Source: Nymphaea colorata
Lineage: Eukaryota > Streptophyta > Magnoliopsida > Nymphaeales > Nymphaeaceae
Assembly (NCBI RefSeq): GCF_008831285.2
Contig: NC_045147.1
Span: 15,664,854-15,728,853, forward strand
Direction: 5' to 3'
DNA: 64,000 nt
The position numbers and the translations under genes are program-made. The notes below the pieces were generated by a model. That model was not told where the DNA came from. It did not search any database and worked only from the letters and a program-made list of their open reading frames with translations. Each line of letters opens with the position of its first letter. Positions within the stretch are counted from its first letter, which is position 1. This document shows, piece after piece, positions 45,268-60,006 of the stretch.

Positions 45268-48200
45268 TCACAGTAAACCTGCCTCAATTAAGCTTCTCCT
45301 CCTCAAAGTCTCATCCACCAATTTGAAAGTTTTCTTAACAAGTTTCTGATCCAGTGCTGTTGTCCTGTATATCTTAAAAATTCGGTCAACATGGTTTGGA
45401 GTGCTGCTCTGGAAGTATAACTCTTCAAATTTCTTCTTCACAAACCTGATAAAGGAAGAAGCTAGGTCAGACATATATAAGTCAATCATATGGATGGAAG
45501 TGGTGGCACCATGTGTATCCACAATTTATTTGCATATTCAAACAAGTTTGCAAGGTGCAAATTCAGCAGTTGTGGCTTCTATGGGGTTTCTTATAATTTG
45601 GATATGCTATTTTGGGTATATCTGCATCACAACTATACTTGAAAATGATTGTAAAATCTAATACAGGATGACAGAATATCACATAAAACTTAATTGTATC
45701 TTCACTCTTTTGTTTTCCTTTTGACGACAATGTTTGGCTGGCTTTGGGAATCAATTGCGGCAGGATGATTCACTAGTGCAACTTCATGACATCTCATAGT
45801 GAAACAGGGGCCACATCTCTTCATTTTAGTAAACAGTCTCTTCACATCCCTTTGTACATTATGCACCTAGAGGTTTCTGACCACAAACTGTGGTTCAAAT
45901 TCCAATTAACTTTCTGCTGCATAGCAGATGCAAGCCAGTTGATGTGTCAGAAAACTGAAAGACCATCGTAGCACTATCTAAAACCGATTACAGAAATAAA
46001 GTAGCCTCTCCCAACCCCGAAAAGTGGAAATAGAAAATCTTGTCAGAAAGAGAACAACCCTGGAGGAAATATTCAATTCTTTAAGCAGACAACATAATTT
46101 GGGCAATTCTTGGTAGACAGTAGCAAGTACTGATTTGAAACATCTAATAAATTTGGACTTTTACCAGGTTTTAATTTGGCAGATGCTGACTCAGAATATA
46201 AAATAGAGGCATCACAATATCCTCTATGTAAAATCTAATACAAGCAAGGGCATAGGGGCATCAAGACTGTATCTAAGGCTGCATGCATGTCCTCAATGTG
46301 TCAGCATGCCTTTTAAGTGCATCCAGACAATGACATGAGACCTCAATAAACAACTATTAGAACCCCAAGACAAGAATCAAAAACATCACTGATTCAGGTA
46401 AAACTGTAACTAGATATTTTACAAACATAAAAGAAAAAACCATTGACTTACTCATAAGCATGCTCGACCTCTTGCTTTCCTGATGAAATGGGTTGATAAT
46501 CTTTGAACCACTCACAGACACTAAGAGGAACCTGCAAAAGAAGACAGGTCAATACTTACTTTGGGAGTTCCTGTGATGATCAGAAGGCTAAAACCTCACC
46601 TTCAAAACTTTCTTCTCAAATAGATCGAACTTGTTTAGGAACAATAAGAAGCATGTTTTCTGCATCGAGAATTGAACATCAGACAACAAAACTTCTCAAC
46701 CTATATCATGAAGCTTGTGTTATGCATAGAACCTCAAAACATTGCTGCTTCAGAACCCAATCAAAAAGCCCCTTAGTTTCCATGATGCGGTTCTTGCTTT
46801 CATCCTCAAAAAGCACCTGATCATACCTGGTTCATTAAACAGAAGCAGATCAACACAACCTGCAGAATGCTAGGTTCACTTAATTTTTAAAATACTTCAA
46901 ATGCTCCAGAAAGGTCGAAAATTCAAGCAGAAGTAGTGTTGTCATTGATGATCTTGTGATATGAGAATGATTAGCCATTTACTCGCTAATTGCAGCACAA
47001 AAGATTACAGCAGTAACGCCTTCGAACAGATGAATCCACTTCCTTCTCTCATTTCTCTGCCCACCAACATCAAAGAGCCTATAGACTTGCCCACTCTTTT
47101 TGTTCTCACCCACAGGACTGCAAAGAAACATTCTTAGCGTTTAATATTTCATAGAGAATATCGTATATGTGGGAAAAAGAAAGAGAATGCAAGAAACACA
47201 TGTAATTTTAAAGTTTAAACCTCATCATGAACTTTTATGTTACTAACCACAACAGGTTGGTAGTCTAAACAACTTCAAGAAGTTCTTAGTGAGCTTCTTT
47301 CAGCATAAAAACATTAACGAGAAAACAGTAACGGAAATGTTCACATGTCTGCATGTATGTTTGAAGTTTTGAACTTTATTCGTGCTTGGCTTGCCTAAAC
47401 TGCGCTCAAGCTGGACCTGAATTGTAAACAAGTTAAGCTTAACCCTATAGGTGAAGCTCATTTCATAGATGAGCCAATTTGAAGAGATCCAATCTAAGCT
47501 CGAACTTTATGATTCTTAGTTCAGCTTCAGCTCAGTTCACACTCAGCTTGTGCATACCCCTTCTTTTGACTACACAAATAACAAATTGTGTAATTCCAAA
47601 CCTTATATGAAGCAAATGGATTAAAATAACCTTGGACCGTGCGACGGATAATTTTACCTGAACTGTATTTCTACAACACCTGTAGTACGAACTCTAGCAT
47701 AAAGAACATCCTCCTGCAAAGATTAAAAAATTGAGGCAAGAAGTTCAGTAACAGCATAATGACTAAGAGACTTGCAGTCCAAGATAGAAACTACTCTCTC
47801 TACACAGAGAGCTCATATAGCATTTTTTATTTTGTTTGGCATAAGAATTAGCTACATAGAACACTGGAGAAAAGACGATGCCTCAGGAACCCACACGACC
47901 AGCATATAGCCATATACAGTCTTTTGAGAAATATCTTACTTATTAGCCACAGGATAGGACAGTGGAACAGATTATTTGCATACTCGACACATCACTGCTG
48001 ATCAACAATCACAGAACTAGGAACATACCCCAGGTAAACCCAACTAATTTGACTCATGAATTGTGTCAATCAACCTGGACCAAGTTCTAATTATTACAAT
48101 TCACAATCATGGATCCAAATTCTTTCTCCGTTTCAGTTTACAGCAATTTCCTCTCTATATAAGACCATGATTGCTTCAACAAGGTCCAAAGGCCAAAATT

Positions 48201-51200
48201 AAATTCAAGGGTACCTCTTATGCATTATCTACCTTGCATATTATGACTTCCAAGCACAATGCTCACAGAAAGATGCTACCTACTAAGAATCAAATAATCA
48301 AAATTCAGTAGTATAGCTCAGTTACTAGTTGACATATTTTAATAATTTTAAAGTGATTATTGCTGCAAAATATTGGTATGCTAACACTAGAATTTTTTGT
48401 AATAACTCGTCCTTGTTACTGAATTGATCTGCTGTATCGGCAAATCAACCACAAGCTGATCTTAGTTCAAGTCACAAGCTTGCTAAGTTCTAACCATGGC
48501 ATCAGGTCTGTAGTCTAGAATATTGACTACAGCTTAAGGAAGCTTTTCTTCAATGACTATTATACATTTATTGACTAAGAGACATTTCAGTCAATGATCT
48601 TTAAAGGGGGTTTCAGCATGTTATTTAGCATATGGTGAAGGACAAGTTAGATGGTACCCGAGGTCTACTACTGCATGCAAATGCTTCAAATCTTTATGAT
48701 CAGACAGAAATAACCCACCACAAATATCAGCAACAGGAACATGTTGCGAATCATGATTTATTATGATATGTTACAAGATATGGAAACCATGCACTTCACA
48801 GTAAATAATTCATTTATTACTCATTTTTCTCGGTAGAATTTAGCTGTGGATGCAAATGGATTAGATACAGAAGATGGTGGATCAGACTCGGGAATGCTGT
48901 ATCAAAGTACAAAACCATCAATAGATAAGAAAGTTCCCATTCAGATGTATGTGAATATACTTCCTTTAACGAACTTGTATTCTACTTAATGCAATGTACA
49001 ATCAATTTATCTGCACCCCAAACTTTAACATGATGTTGGGAACTAAAAGGAGCACATATTAGATTTGCTGGCAGTTGGTTTCTTTGGCTTAGTTTGCTTA
49101 ACTTATTTAACACAAGAAAAGATTCTCTTAATTTTCTTAATCCTCATAAGCAAGATAATAATATAGAAACAATATATGTAAGCAATGAGAGCTCCAGAAG
49201 GGAATATAACAGTAAAGCAACCAAGTTTGGTAAATGAACCTTTGTTGGTACATAGTCAGCATCAGATAATCTCTGCAAATTTTCCATAAAATACAGTGTA
49301 CAATCTGGAACTTGAAGTTCATTTGCTCGGACATAAGTTTCCTACAACCACAGCAGTAATAATTAGAAATCACATCAAGTATCTCCGAGTATCATGACTG
49401 AAACAGTATAGACATTTGCTGATGTGCAAAACTAAAGCTGATTTGACTGCAAAAAAAAGTAACCTGAATTGCAGGATCTTTCCATAAAGTCTCTATCTCT
49501 TTGGCGAGCTCCTTCGTCAAGGGAGGATAATCTAGTCTGCTCCCCATTTCAGACAGTTTGTCTCCAATCTCCTATTATATTGCAATATCAGGTTAGTCAA
49601 TAGAAAATAGGAAAAGGACAAATTAAATGGTTTCAGTTTGAGAATGCAATGAAATAATATCAAATATAAAAAAGCAAAGCAATAGATAGGAAAAGTGAAG
49701 GACTCAGATGGAGAGCACAATGAAACAATACAGAAAGCTTGGCAATTTGAAAAACACAGATGCTGAGGTGTGTGTTTGGAGGCAGAAGTTTGTACATATA
49801 TCTGTGTGTGTCATTGCCACAAATATTGCTCTTTGATATTTCTTAAAAGCTTCATGTAGGATTTTTTTTTTTTTCATTTTGTTAAGTAAAACATGGAAAG
49901 TAAAATATACATGTATATAACAAAAATTTGTGAAATTGTAAATTTTTTTATTAATTTCCTTATAAAAATTCCATATAGTTTTCAAAACCTTAAAAGAAAT
50001 TGAAAAATGGAAACATTCGCTTAAAGTACATAATAGAGAAAAGGATGTTCTGAAAAGAGCAAAATATCATTCAATTGATCCGACTCCAAAACAGAAGGAT
50101 TTACAATATTGTGTACTTTATGGTAACATTTTGACAATATCACAATATTTCCCCGATAAAAATATTTCATTCTGTTTAGGCAATATTATTGCAATATTTT
50201 CAAAATATCTCCAATAACCTTGTCCCATACTCTCTCTCTCTCTCTCTCTATACAGTTTATATATATATATATATAAACCGTATTCATATGGATTCTGAAA
50301 GGTTACGAATATACCCTTGTTAATTAATGTGTCAGAGGCATAAAAAAAGGAACTTAAACTTTGTCCTAATTAGAACCCTACTGATGAACATAGCATCTCA
50401 CAAACACACCTGTATCATACTCTAGTGACATGGTAAGGTATATGGCTAAGTTACAATAGCAGTAGAAATGTAGATTATTTTGTGAAACTAAGAAAAGGTT
50501 GGGATCACAAAGACAGTAATGAAAATATAATCACGCTGAAGCATTGCCAGCATCATGAATTTCTAACAAGAAAAAGGTTAGCAGATTAAGCTGTGATATT
50601 TCAGAAAGCACGATTCACCAACTTCACATGATTCTATAACCGGAAGAGAATTTAAAGATATTCTTGTTGGATATTGAAATAATGCTATTCGATTTGAGAG
50701 CACAGAAAAATAAGTTACCTTTTAATGTGGTAAGAAAAGCCTGTGACAAGTGCAGACTCGATATGGAAGAAAGAAGCACGTTGATGTGCTACAACATACA
50801 GCTTCTTCCCAATCATTGCTATCAGAGTGAGGGTTCCTCTATGTTATCAAAAGGGGTCATATTGAGCCTAAATTGATCATGATGCCATCATCTTAAGTGG
50901 TTTGACATTGATAACTGTGAAAGTATGTAAACAATTGTCCATGATAGCATGTGGTGTTGGTATTAAAGCATGCCCATTGAGCACTTCACGTCATTATCTG
51001 GTATGTTGCAAGAAATTAAAATGCATCCAGATTTTCAAGATATCATTTTATTTAACTTTTTGAATTTAGGGAATATGATTTTACTTTATTTTTTTATGAG
51101 AATTCAAGGAGTGCAAATATTTCAAAATCCAAACTAAAGAATGTATGGGCAAAAAATTATTATGAAAGACTTCACCAAACATGGAGATGATAAACCCCAA

Positions 51201-53324
51201 CAAAATCATGACATCACCAAAATATTGCAGATCTTCAGTTCTATCTCAATGCTAACATATGTTTCTGCGTTTAGACTTTTAAGAAGATCAGTTATCTCAG
51301 AATTTTTATATCTAATAGGCTCATTTTCTAGATCTCGGTCCAGGAAGAGCTACCCATCCGGTCAAGAGAATATCTTTGTCCAGAAAATGTGATAATTGCA
51401 ATTCATCATATTTAAACTATATATGTGTGTGTGGACCAGCAGTACAAAATTTCCCTGGAATGAAGCATAGGAAATATGAACTAGTGAATAGAATACATAA
51501 AAAAGAATGTTTGTGTCACATAAGCAATTAAGCACCCATAAGTAGGACTTAGGAAACACCGGCATTAACATGTATACCAGCAGACATAGAGTATATGGTG
51601 CTACCTTGATGAAGGGTGCTCAGAAAAAAAATAAAGGGACTGGCATGGAAAGACAACAAAAAGAAAGGGGAAAAAAAGACAACGATTATCTATAAGACAA
51701 ATGATATTGTGATGGTGACCAGGATCTGCTTTTCAAATTTGAACCAATTGCTGTGGATAATTTCTTCCTTAAGTGTGCATCATGCCAATTATCACGCAGC
51801 TACACAACCATGGACAACAGAATGTTGCTGCAGCAATTTGAAGAACAATAAAGCAGCAAGCTTGAGCAAGTTGATCATAAAATACGCAAATAGCAGGCAA
51901 TGGCCCTGGACATGTTAGTGATCAGCTTGAGATGTGGTTACCATGCATGTCATTTTCTAGAATATTACGAAGAACAAGAAATTACTTAATAGAATAGTTC
52001 ATCCCAAAATAAAAAGAGAAAACAATTCCAATGTAAATAAGACGGATATAGAAGAAGAAAAGAAAAGAAACGAGGCCTAAAAGATAAGGCATCTGCAAAC
52101 CTTATTTTCAAGAGACAAAACGTACTTTGAAGAGTCCTCATCATTCTGAGCAAACTCCTTTGAGCCATCATACAATATCTGCAAAAAATATCCTCGGTTA
52201 ACCCCAATCAAAGATCACAACACATGCAACGATTGTGAATACAGAGAACAAAAAAAAGAAAAAGAAAAACAGATAACACACACTACAGTTGTTGGTCATA
52301 AAAGGGAAACAACCAACACACCCTTTCTAGTATTGCATACTTTAATTGTCTGATATATATTTGCATGGATAACTGGTGTATAGCTCCTAAGCTCTGCCTC
52401 ATCAAATCCTGATTGAAACAAAAATTTGATCTGCATGTAGTGGAGTAAAACAATGTCAGAAGACCAGCAGCTGTCTAAATTTTGCAAAAGTTCATAGTCA
52501 AGAAGGAAAATATGTTGACCTGCTTGAAGATAGTAGACTTTCCCGACTCAGCAGCACCTGATCCAACATAGTTCTCAATGTTTAACATAATATGTACCAT
52601 TGTGTTTGAAAATACACTAATTGGACAAATATATTGAAGAAAGGCCAACAATCCATAGCGGTGAATCAAAGAACAACTCTTAAAGCTTAGGATGAATAGA
52701 TGATGCGTTAGAGCCACAAAGGTGTGTTTTGGGCATCTAGACCTTGACCATGGAGGCATGGTGCAAGCATGCAGTGACCTGTGAAGAAGTGTGTTCTGTG
52801 GGGTTGGGATGGGCAAGGTGCTGTGTCAGCTTAGAAGGGAGGTAATAGGTCAGTGTATGCTTGCATGCATGTGTAATATCATTAGGATCACCAAAGAAAC
52901 TCCTCAAACTTCTTGGTCAGACATTCATATTTAGAAAAGGGAAAGGAGTTGCTTGTAATAAAAAAATTGGATTGAGATTCCATAAAATCTAACCTAGTAG
53001 CAGCAGCTTCTGAATATGCTTCTCGGCTTTTGTTTCCAAAGCAATCTGGCGTTCTATTTCTGCAGCCTGAACGAAGAACACATTTCAATGGTAAAGAGGC
53101 ATTCAAAACTAGAAGTCTCTCCACTTTGCTGAAATAGTTCAAATTCAAGACATCTAACATCAACTACCTCACTTGCAGCCAACTGATGAAGTGGAAACTC
53201 AAGATATCAAAGATCATCTACCCTTACTAACAACAAAACAGAGAGTCAATGGGAGCTGAACCTGAGCACTTTCTTCAGCATCAGCTTCAGAGTGAGGTCT
53301 TTGTCTGCTGCAGAGTAGGCCCAT
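45268..53324 (-). CDS. GPA1: heterotrimeric G-protein alpha subunit (canonical GPA1)
   Basis: Membrane-bound GTPase that cycles with G-beta-gamma and is restrained by RGS1. Thirteen exons: 53324-53262, 53066-52994, 52558-52521, 52430-52341, 52178-52101, 49571-49464, 49341-49240, 47713-47658, 47117-46983, 46826-46733, 46659-46600, 46531-46452, 45445-45268. They encode 384 aa (AtGPA1 has 383). MGLLCS gives the myristoylation Gly2 and palmitoylation Cys5. The P-loop at 46-53 is GAAESGKS, where the family has GAGESGKS: Ala48 replaces the Gly equivalent to Ras Gly12. Switch [10 protein letters not shown] has the catalytic Arg191 and Mg-binding Thr194; switch [14 protein letters not shown] has Gln223; NKFD and TTALD are the base-binding motifs. 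The C-terminus SLIEAGLL is of the dicot type. All introns are GT-AG; intron 5 is about 2.5 kb. Upstream, probable leader sequence follows a TTTCCAG acceptor at about 53338. Confidence 0.97.
50230..50274. repeat. compound (CT)n and (TA)n microsatellite in GPA1 intron 5
   Basis: About 10 CT units are followed, after TACAGTTTA, by about 8 TA units. This lies in the largest intron of the G-alpha gene. Confidence 0.85.
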
Positions 53325-54430
53325 ATTCTCAATTACGCTGGAAAGCATCGAACTAGTAATCGGAAACTATACGACAGTGTGCCAGACAAACTTTCTGTAA
53401 GGAAGAAGAAAGAAATCCTTCCAAGGAGAAACCAGAAAGCTTATGATCGAGTTCACCAATCTAGGATTCCATACGAATGACACAACATGCTTCGCTCAGC
53501 GCAGCAATCCTGAAGAACCAAAAAGCCAATAAACATACATGAATAGTCTGCACAAGGTTGAGTCCGTGTCAAGTACATGCAAAAATATTGAAACGAGCCC
53601 GGTATACAACATTCGATAGTTAACAAGATGCATTATTTAGGCAATGGTGTCGCTTTTTTCAGCAAGATGGTCTGAGAAAAATGGGGCCTCTTCAGTTCAA
53701 TAAAGAGCCAAGTTGCCAACAAACTAAAGACTAAGCAAGTTGAAAGTTAAACGCATTCATCACCGGACATCGAAGCACATTGATTCAGATCGGACGCCAG
53801 TTCTAAACTCAAGTCGACGAAAACCGGGAACCAAATACACGATAGGCAAAAGCGGGAACGCTGACAAGGAAAGCACTCGGGCAGAGTGACAAGCATCGCA
53901 AAAGATGAACCAGCAGCAGCAAATAATGCATCACATCCAAGACACGGGAGGAGGGAGACGAAGATCGAGTAAAAACGCAAACCACAAAAACAAAGGAAAC
54001 CAAACGCATCAGAGGGAACCCCCAAAAGAGAAAGATAACACAATAAAGGGGAGGGAGCAATCACCGGGGACTCTGAAATCGATTGCAGATAAAGAGCGAG
54101 GGACGGGAAGAGCGAGGCGACCTCCCCTCCCCGCCGGATCATGAGGCCCGACACGGTGGCCGCTTGAGAACAACGCGAGGGGGAGTGAGATGAGGTGGCG
54201 GGCGGGGCAGAGCGGGACTGGCGGTCGTGGCGGCAGCGACGGTGACAGCGGCCGGCTCAACTGATGAAAAGAGGGGCCGGTCAGCGAAGGGAGGATCAGA
54301 CAGTCAAACTGAAAGAGAAAGGGGACGGCAGTGGGTCGTGCACTTCGACGTTTTGCTGACGGCGATTTCGAGGGAGAAGTGGCCGGAAGATGCAACGGAG
54401 AGCGCAACAGAAGGAGCCACGTGGTGAAGC
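53325..54430 (-). promoter_or_regulatory. GPA1 leader and promoter, GC-rich
   Basis: Base composition rises sharply from about 53.8 to 54.5 kb, unlike the AT-rich surroundings, which marks the likely transcription start of the - strand GPA1 gene. A CACGTG G-box lies at about 54419-54424. A leader intron ending at the TTTCCAG acceptor near 53338 is likely; its donor could not be fixed. Long ORFs here (53747-54407) are Arg/Pro/Ser-rich products of the GC content, not genes. Confidence 0.45.
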
Positions 54431-58009: not shown

Positions 58010-60006
58010 AAGTCTGAGATTTTTGTTAGAACCATTGTGGACTGCCACATGTTGGAAATTCAGAGAATTCTTCAATGGCCTAATGGGGATCTTCCTTCAA
58101 GTCCCTTGGGCTCCCCTTGTTTTTGGGAAACCTTATTGAAGATCTATGCTTACCACTTCTCACTAAGGTGGAAAAGAGGTTGGCTGGATGGAAGACTCGG
58201 ATTTTGTCCTACGCGGGACGGTTATGTCTCATCCGTTATGTGTTGATGACATTACCCTACTACTGGATGATGGCGTTTGGATTACCAACTATTGTGTTAA
58301 AGAAAATGCAGCAAGCTTGTATCAAATTCATGTGGAATGAGGGAGATGGTGCACGACACATGCATCTTGTTAAGTGGGATCGACTTTGCATGCCGGTTGA
58401 GGAAGGTGGAGTTGGTATTAGAAGATTAGAAGAAGTGAATAGAGTGTTGCTTGCTAGCAGATGCTGTCGGCTTTTGACCTACGGGACACCTTAGGCCAAC
58501 ATTTTTAAGGATAAGTATTTGAGTCACCATAGTCCTTGGACTTTTAAAAAAGCTCCTAACCAAAGCTAGGGCTGGAAAGGATTGCGGTGGGGTTGGAGTT
58601 TGATCCAGGACAAAGTTGAGTGAAAAATTGGTAATGGAGAATGGACCAGGTTTTGGACGGATCGTTGGTTGGGGCAAGTGCTCTTATATAGAGTTGATGC
58701 GAATGGGTATTCATTGCCGTGTAGGGAGTTTAAGATCAGTGTTCGAGAGATTACATGTGGGAGGCAGGATAGCTAGTCTTTTGCCATTGCTAGGAGTCTT
58801 GGAGTGTCCATTGATAACATTAGGCTTATGGAGACTGAGGACAAGCTAGTCTGGAGTGAAGATGGTAAGGCGACTTTCAAAGCTGGTGAGATTATCAAGA
58901 AGTGTCGTACTCAGGGTGTTAAAGAGTGGTGGTGGAAGAAGATTTGGGCTACCTACGCTCCAACCAAGAGCTGCCAGCACACCTACATTGCTTGTGCAGG
59001 CAGACTTCCCACTCATGATAGACTTCAGAAAGCTGGAATTCAATCTTGCCAATCGTTGTTCATTGTGCCTTTGTGCGGAGGAGACTAATGGTCATATCTT
59101 AATTAAGTGTAAAGTTGCCAAGGAAGTATGGCGGTATGTTGCTGCAAAGTTTGGTAGAGTGAAGTTGCCCCAAGGTGAGATTGTAACTGAGTTCCAAAAA
59201 TGGTTACAAGCTAAGATTTCGGGGAAGTGGACACGGCGGTGCTGGAGAATGTCCTTCTTAGTTTCCTGCTGGAGCCTGTGGCAACTAAGAAACAGATGCT
59301 TCCATGACAGCCTTCAATCCCATATTGGTAGGATCAAAAGAGAGGTTTGGAGGAATTGCATAGATAGTTTTTTCTCTGTCAATTGGCCGCCTGAGGTTAT
59401 ACAGAAATTGAAAATTTGGTTGGAAACTGGGCTCTACAGTGTTGACACTATTGGCTTCGATACAAGTAGTATGACTATTAACATTGGTAGAGCTCACACC
59501 AGGCATGGACCGAGAATAGCTGGATTAAGCTATGAGGATAATGGTCAATTGGGTTGTGCCGTCATTATCAAAGACCGGGGCAGAATCTATGAGGGCGAAA
59601 TGGAAGTATTGGAGCGCATTCTTAGATTCCATAAGGAATATGGTGGTGACTATATTATCATCTTCCCAACTAAAGAATGGGTGAGAAAAATTACACAGTT
59701 GTTGGAAGGGAGAAGGACGAATGCTGGCTGGACTAGGTGTTTTAGCCAACTTCAGGGGAGAATTTCAATGAAGCAGGAGTTGATTTAGGCCGTCTGATCA
59801 TGGAACATGCCCATGGGCCCAATGACTATTTTGCTGACTTCAATGTATAGACATAGTTTGGTGGATATGGTTGTTTTCAATTTTTTTGTGAAGAGTTGGG
59901 ACAATCCTTTGTTTTTTTACTATTAAGGTCGCTTGGCCTTTCCTTATACATACTCATTTTGTTGAAATAAAGGAAGGGGGCCTAACCCCCAAGCAAGCTT
60001 TTACTT
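58010..60006 (+). mobile_element. 5'-truncated, frameshifted LINE (non-LTR retrotransposon)
   Basis: The reading frame, broken by several frameshifts and stops, shows the C-terminal part of a plant L1-type reverse transcriptase (LPLLTKVEKRLAGWKTR, ILSYAGRLCLIRYVLMTLPY, FMWNEGDGARHMHLVKWDRL, EEGGVGIRRLEEVNR). This is followed by the zinc-binding zf-RVT region (CSLCLCAEETNGHILIKC, then KEVW) and WSLWQLRNRCFHD. The longest open frame is 58856-59788. Its last 110 residues resemble a worn RNase H domain (GQLGCAVIIKDRGRIYEGEM). The endonuclease and most of the RT are missing, as in 5'-truncated insertions. A perfect 15-base direct repeat (57995-58009 and 60007-60021) bounds it. Confidence 0.85.

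Follow-up and report, generated by a model that had tools for sequence, protein, structure and literature searches.

Conventional G-alpha subunits are described by the G1 motif G(A/T/Q/P)G(E/D)SGK(S/T), in which no alternative is given for the glycine at the third position (PMC8584482). Replacement of the corresponding glycine by valine (G42V) makes Gi1 GTPase-deficient, and the side chain is thought to block placement of the catalytic glutamine (PMC3285607). KRAS G12A falls into the mutant group whose intrinsic hydrolysis is slowed 40- to 80-fold, its exchange is like that of the wild type, and hydrolysis mediated by GTPase-activating protein (GAP) is reduced by 97-99% in all of the KRAS mutants (PMC6813200). 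When the Thr-Ala-Gln P-loop of Naegleria was put into another G-alpha, hydrolysis became slower, activation became faster and the action of regulator of G-protein signalling (RGS) proteins was lost (PMC9283941). In grasses, a Thr-to-Asn substitution in switch I of G-alpha accompanies the loss of RGS and has been proposed as its cause (PMC3386157). Here we describe GPA1, the canonical G-alpha gene of Nymphaea colorata, which belongs to the Nymphaeales, within the ANA grade of early-diverging flowering plants (PMC7015852). The gene lies in a stretch of 64,000 nucleotides (the window; contig NC_045147.1, positions 15,664,854 to 15,728,853), to whose numbering the positions below refer. GPA1 is intact and present as a single copy in the assembly, its P-loop carries alanine (Ala48) at the third position, and no gene for a seven-transmembrane RGS (7TM-RGS) protein is detectable.

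Ala48 in the P-loop of GPA1

GPA1 runs on the minus strand from 53324 to 45268 and comprises 13 exons, which together give an open reading frame of 384 amino acids ending with TGA; 12 out of 12 introns are of the GT...AG type. The P-loop, GAAESGKS, is read across the junction of exon 2 (52994..53066), which ends with LLLLG and contributes the first base of the Gly46 codon (G|GT), and exon 3 (52520..52557). The Ala48 codon, GCT, occupies 52550..52552 and is distinguished from the glycine codon GGT by the single base 52551. In the alignment it falls on the position of Ras Gly12, Gi1 Gly42 and rice RGA1 Gly48. The original prediction, made from the letters of the window, had read the same loop and the same one-base change, and both are confirmed by the 13-exon model and the alignment; it had placed exon 3 at 52521-52558, where an exon is indeed present, with each end one base off (correct: 52557-52520).

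Alternative splice acceptors that might restore glycine were considered. Five AG dinucleotides between 60 bases before and 30 bases after the start of exon 3 were tested, and only the one giving the 52557 start keeps both the frame and the full P-loop; hence none of the five restores Gly48. In the solved-structure sequences of Arabidopsis, rice, Selaginella and a Gt/Gi chimera, the residue aligned with Ala48 is always glycine. Compared with the G1 consensus, GAAESGKS departs at position 3, with Ala for Gly, and the other seven positions fit.

The string GAAESGKS has no occurrence in the full text of open-licence PMC papers, and of those that mention both heterotrimeric G proteins and Nymphaea none deals, by title, with the G protein of this plant. 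Neither 'G protein' nor 'GPA1' occurs in the main text of the N. colorata genome paper (PMC7015852). Pattern matches in collections of viral contigs and genome contigs (3 and 21 stretches, respectively) encoded no relative.

GPA1 is otherwise an ordinarily conserved G-alpha

All four of the other motifs that were checked are present: switch I ARVRTTG (A190-G196, with Thr195, the Thr in contact with RGS, kept, also in the alignment) in exon 8 (47658..47713), switch II DVGGQ with the catalytic Gln223 in exon 9 (46983..47117), NKFD in exon 11 (46600..46659) and TTALD, followed by the TGA stop, in exon 13 (45268..45445). The catalytic residues Arg191 and Gln223 are unchanged, as is the switch II stretch QRNERRK, and this would point to a protein with altered timing more than to a dead one. 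The Pfam G-alpha model PF00503 matches residues 21-372, nearly the whole protein, at 352.6 bits, and the best three PDB matches are plant G-alphas. Apart from its P-loop, GPA1 thus has the sequence features of a canonical plant G-alpha, namely a near-full-length domain with the corresponding similarity, the catalytic Arg and Gln, NKxD and a TCAT-type motif. The long N-terminal extension and the degenerate nucleotide motifs of extra-large G proteins (XLG) are not found in this protein of 384 amino acids starting with MGLLCS.

For a measure of conservation, each of five proteins (Arabidopsis, rice, Selaginella, the Gt/Gi chimera and GPA1) was compared with the columns invariant in the other four. 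GPA1 departs in three of 97 such columns (G48A, M262I, S282C). The same test gave 0/94 for Arabidopsis (a stretch without the N-terminus), 6/100 for rice and 21/115 for Selaginella. By these counts the gene is not generally decayed; the conservation of GPA1 is ordinary, apart from a single change in a loop under strong constraint. In this respect, too, the original prediction of an open 13-exon frame with its remaining GTPase motifs in place, and not simply a decayed gene, was borne out.

The tolerance of position 48 was also gauged by exchanging single residues and rescoring with the Pfam G-alpha model, an informative but soft measure. The scores were 354.7 bits for Gly48, 352.9 for Ser, 352.6 for Ala and 351.3 for Val. 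In the Gly48 background, G46A gave 350.3, G51A 350.4 and E49A 352.3 bits.

GPA1 is the only G-alpha found with a near-canonical P-loop in the assembly

The assembly, the one sampled here, comprises 407.8 Mb in 783 contigs. It agrees exactly with N. colorata at Ny-4.2, the one SSR locus compared out of 13 published for the species (chromosome 4; PMC9601493): the forward primer is found once, on contig C4, and (GA)33 and the reverse primer come directly behind it. The Pfam G-alpha model returned 11 matches, of which one is GPA1, eight lie in four XLG-like loci and two are single matches on contigs C309 and C365. Searching with the whole GPA1 protein gave 21 matches, 12 in GPA1 and nine in the XLG-like loci. 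No second GPA1 copy was found in the assembly with the Pfam model, the whole protein or exon 3, whose region occurs once.

The C309 match (12574-12729, minus strand) was rejected as a second G-alpha, being ARF-like and interrupted in frame by a stop codon right behind WDVGGQ; it is probably an ARF pseudogene. The C365 match (E 8.4e-4) contains six stops and is absent among the whole-protein matches.

The four XLG-like loci share the G-alpha-like domain with GPA1. Their P-loops are GLPGSGTS, GLPGSGTS, GPQGSGTT and GQPGAGTS, with the P-loop lysine missing in all four, whereas GPA1 retains Lys52 and the other checked motifs. The most diverged of these P-loops, GQPGAGTSALFKQ, is that of L035 (C4:16192500-16199700), one of the loci L032-L035. 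Because GPA1 is single-copy and the XLG-like P-loops are degenerate, GPA1 is the only member of the G-alpha family found in the assembly with a near-canonical P-loop, in agreement with the earlier view of it as the only canonical G-alpha.

A 7TM-RGS gene was not detected

The Pfam RGS model PF00615 gave no match in the genome; it likewise gave none in 14 control genomes, so that this result carries little weight alone. A search with Arabidopsis RGS1, using a query sequence written out by hand that Pfam assigns to the RGS proteins, gave one match at 29% identity and E 1.06. Control queries performed differently. With GCR1, also a 7TM protein, six of ten matches fell at one place (best E 9.4e-30). 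With G-beta, five of 31 matches did so at 61-79% identity, including stretches of 36 and 38 residues (64% and 61% identity, E 1.7e-6 and 5.9e-5). The Selaginella G-alpha query, 53% identical, placed eight of its 18 matches in GPA1, three of these eight below E 0.001. A 7TM-RGS gene is therefore most likely absent from N. colorata, as judged from these searches.

Amborella, at the base of the angiosperms, has provided a 7TM-RGS in earlier work (PMC5575782), and the gene has been attributed to the ancestor of the angiosperms (PMC3386157). Absence in N. colorata would hence be a loss, and one that apparently took place close to the base of the flowering plants. A search of open-licence PMC papers for RGS1 or 7TM-RGS together with Nymphaea showed no 'Nymphaea' among the matches listed. 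The missing RGS gene is new here and is the main addition to the earlier P-loop observation.

Remaining exons and other features of the window

The start codon and the MGLLCS N-terminus, which aligns with those of rice and Selaginella, lie in exon 1 (53262..53324). An in-frame ATG is found eight codons further 5' (53346-53348, minus strand). The MGLLCS start is favoured over it, because a possible splice acceptor, TTCCAG, separates the two and because MGLLCS is conserved. The gene model is completed by exon 4 (52341..52430), exon 5 (52101..52178), exon 6 (49464..49571), exon 7 (49240..49341), exon 10 (46733..46826) and exon 12 (46452..46531), all on the minus strand.

Upstream of GPA1, an open reading frame on the plus strand (58850-59785) contains a reverse-transcriptase zinc-binding domain (PF13966, 29 bits) and is probably a relic of a non-LTR retroelement. 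A fragment at 7802-8227 (plus strand) matches beta carbonic anhydrase (PF00484, 26.6 bits) and is probably one exon of a gene. Scans of the window for tRNA genes and Rfam families gave no matches.

Discussion

The explanation we propose, to which we assign a probability of roughly one half, is that N. colorata has a single intact GPA1 whose natural Ala48 slows the GTPase and blunts the response to RGS, that the RGS gene is gone, and that GPA1 is uncoupled from the GTPase timer. The methyl group of Ala48, at the P-loop glycine position adjacent to the gamma-phosphate, would disturb the placing of the catalytic Gln223. The already slow GTPase would then be slowed further and its stimulation by RGS weakened, so that GPA1 would stay GTP-loaded. 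With RGS control gone, signalling would be set independently of the GTPase timer, by G-beta-gamma binding, by receptor-kinase phosphorylation and by extra-large G proteins. Two orders of events are conceivable: Ala48 made RGS useless, or the loss of RGS relaxed selection on the glycine. The first of these, in which a Ras-G12A-like change removed the timer in N. colorata, and perhaps in Nymphaeales, and the 7TM-RGS became useless and could be lost, is offered tentatively and as rather doubtful. A change of the Ala48 type would be survivable, given that some GPA1 functions are nucleotide-independent in Arabidopsis, where the nucleotide-free GPA1 S52C rescues several gpa1 phenotypes (PMC8584482).

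The original prediction, that substitutions at this site usually slow hydrolysis or disturb RGS action and that the change could shift the switch towards the GTP-bound state, is partly supported. By analogy with Gi1 G42V, KRAS G12A and the Naegleria P-loop, slower hydrolysis and a weaker RGS effect would be the likeliest outcome, although replacements here are not always activating, as Gi1 G42R shows (see below). The direction of the shift would likewise be as predicted. Plant G-alphas, however, combine fast exchange with slow hydrolysis (0.047 per min in Arabidopsis and 0.052 per min in rice; PMC3386157) and are mostly GTP-bound without RGS (PMC3386157, PMC3718340), which speaks against a simple 'always on' protein; a further shift may change little. 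As no RGS gene was found, the reading moves from a hyperactive switch to a timer no longer used. The P-loop change together with the lack of a detectable RGS gene fits, without proving it, the idea that plants without RGS cease to use the GTPase timer.

If true, this would be a flowering plant whose wild-type G-alpha is by nature crippled in GTP hydrolysis. It would bear on whether a canonical G-alpha needs its GTP timer and on why plants repeatedly lose RGS, for which the hypotheses tested in one study found no support (PMC11061236). An only canonical G-alpha with a change of the Ras-oncogenic type, together with no RGS gene found, amounts to a natural experiment in a wild flowering plant.

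Several points weigh against the proposed uncoupling. Gi1 G42R hydrolyses GTP normally and yet cannot reach the active state (PMC3285607), so the Ras rule would not be transferable to G-alpha residue by residue. GAP still speeds up KRAS G12A 15- to 25-fold over its intrinsic hydrolysis (PMC6813200), and RGS action on the Ala48 protein therefore need not vanish. In the reverse Naegleria swap hydrolysis went up and no RGS response appeared, the three residues having been exchanged together (PMC9283941). According to a later study of plant RGS loss, no single substitution explains it, and plant G-alphas are RGS-responsive with or without an RGS in the genome (PMC11061236). In the Pfam scan, G48A costs 2.1 bits and E49A 2.4 bits, while replacing either of the remaining P-loop glycines by Ala costs 4.4 and 4.3 bits; Ala and Ser thus seem better tolerated at this site across the G-alpha family than Ala at the other P-loop glycines. 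Finally, the absence of RGS rests on one assembly and a query written out by hand, and with a completeness of 94.4% for the published assembly (PMC7015852) a 7TM-RGS gene may lie in a gap.

Much of this would also be expected if the change were nearly neutral, alanine being the smallest residue after glycine, with hydrolysis and RGS response close to normal and RGS lost independently as in many plants. The mild Pfam penalty, the residual GAP response of KRAS G12A, the normal conservation of the remainder of GPA1 and the repeated loss of RGS in plants without known cause (PMC11061236) all agree with such a scenario. We nevertheless regard it as possible rather than probable, because KRAS G12A, small as its side chain is, counts among the slowly hydrolysing codon-12 mutants (PMC6813200) and because the consensus given for conventional G-alphas allows nothing but glycine here (PMC8584482).

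An error of assembly or consensus, or the sequencing of a plant with a rare or heterozygous allele in a species that otherwise carries Gly48, would need no more than the one base that separates GCT from GGT. We consider this unlikely, and an assembly error at codon 48 in particular is unlikely: the published assembly is based on long reads polished with Illumina data (PMC7015852), the frame and splice sites of GPA1 are intact, and no second copy or haplotig was found that could mislead polishing. It is improbable that Ala48 hinders activation in the way of Arg at Gly42 of Gi1 and leaves GPA1 as a GDP-like scaffold for G-beta-gamma. The inability of G42R to reach the active conformation and the rescue by nucleotide-free S52C would accord with this, but the affinity of the KRAS G12A group for RAF1 is just 1.2- to 2.3-fold lower (PMC6813200). 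General decay, with Ala48 as one of many relaxed changes in a future pseudogene, would suit the undetected RGS and the provocative hypothesis that the canonical G-alpha is increasingly redundant in plants (PMC11061236), but is highly improbable for a gene with an open frame of 384 codons, regular introns, all four other checked motifs and fewer departures from invariant columns than rice.

Comparison with described G-alpha subunits

N. colorata GPA1 is 83.0% identical to Arabidopsis GPA1 (PDB 2XTZ) over 347 aligned residues, 76.3% identical to rice RGA1 (8VGB) over 376 residues and 53.2% identical to Selaginella GPA (8VGA) over 365 residues. The three proteins have the other checked GTPase motifs as in N. 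colorata, but Gly in place of Ala48. The grass G-alphas resemble GPA1 in that the sole canonical G-alpha has one substitution in its switch and nucleotide region and no 7TM-RGS gene is detected (for N. colorata in one assembly, where a gap is possible). They differ in the site, as rice has Asn at the switch I Thr, whereas N. colorata keeps Thr195, lacks this Asn and has the P-loop Gly changed. Moreover, the effect on RGS coupling has been measured in grasses, whereas for N. colorata it is predicted from the sequence. By this analogy, a plant G-alpha would have been uncoupled from its timer by a second route, Ala48, in addition to the Thr-to-Asn change of grasses.

Vertebrate G-alpha-z has a natural Ser at this position and hydrolyses GTP slowly. 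It shares with GPA1 a natural residue other than Gly, but is an animal protein, one of many G-alphas, and differs in other P-loop residues. Naegleria fowleri G-alpha-1 has a natural Ala at the same glycine; there, however, two adjacent residues are changed as well, and in this protist 13 candidate G-alphas occur alongside several RGS proteins (PMC9283941). Gi1 G42V and G42R and KRAS G12A are altered at the same structural position as Ala48, but they are laboratory or tumour mutations and not, like Ala48 in this assembly, the reference allele of a species.
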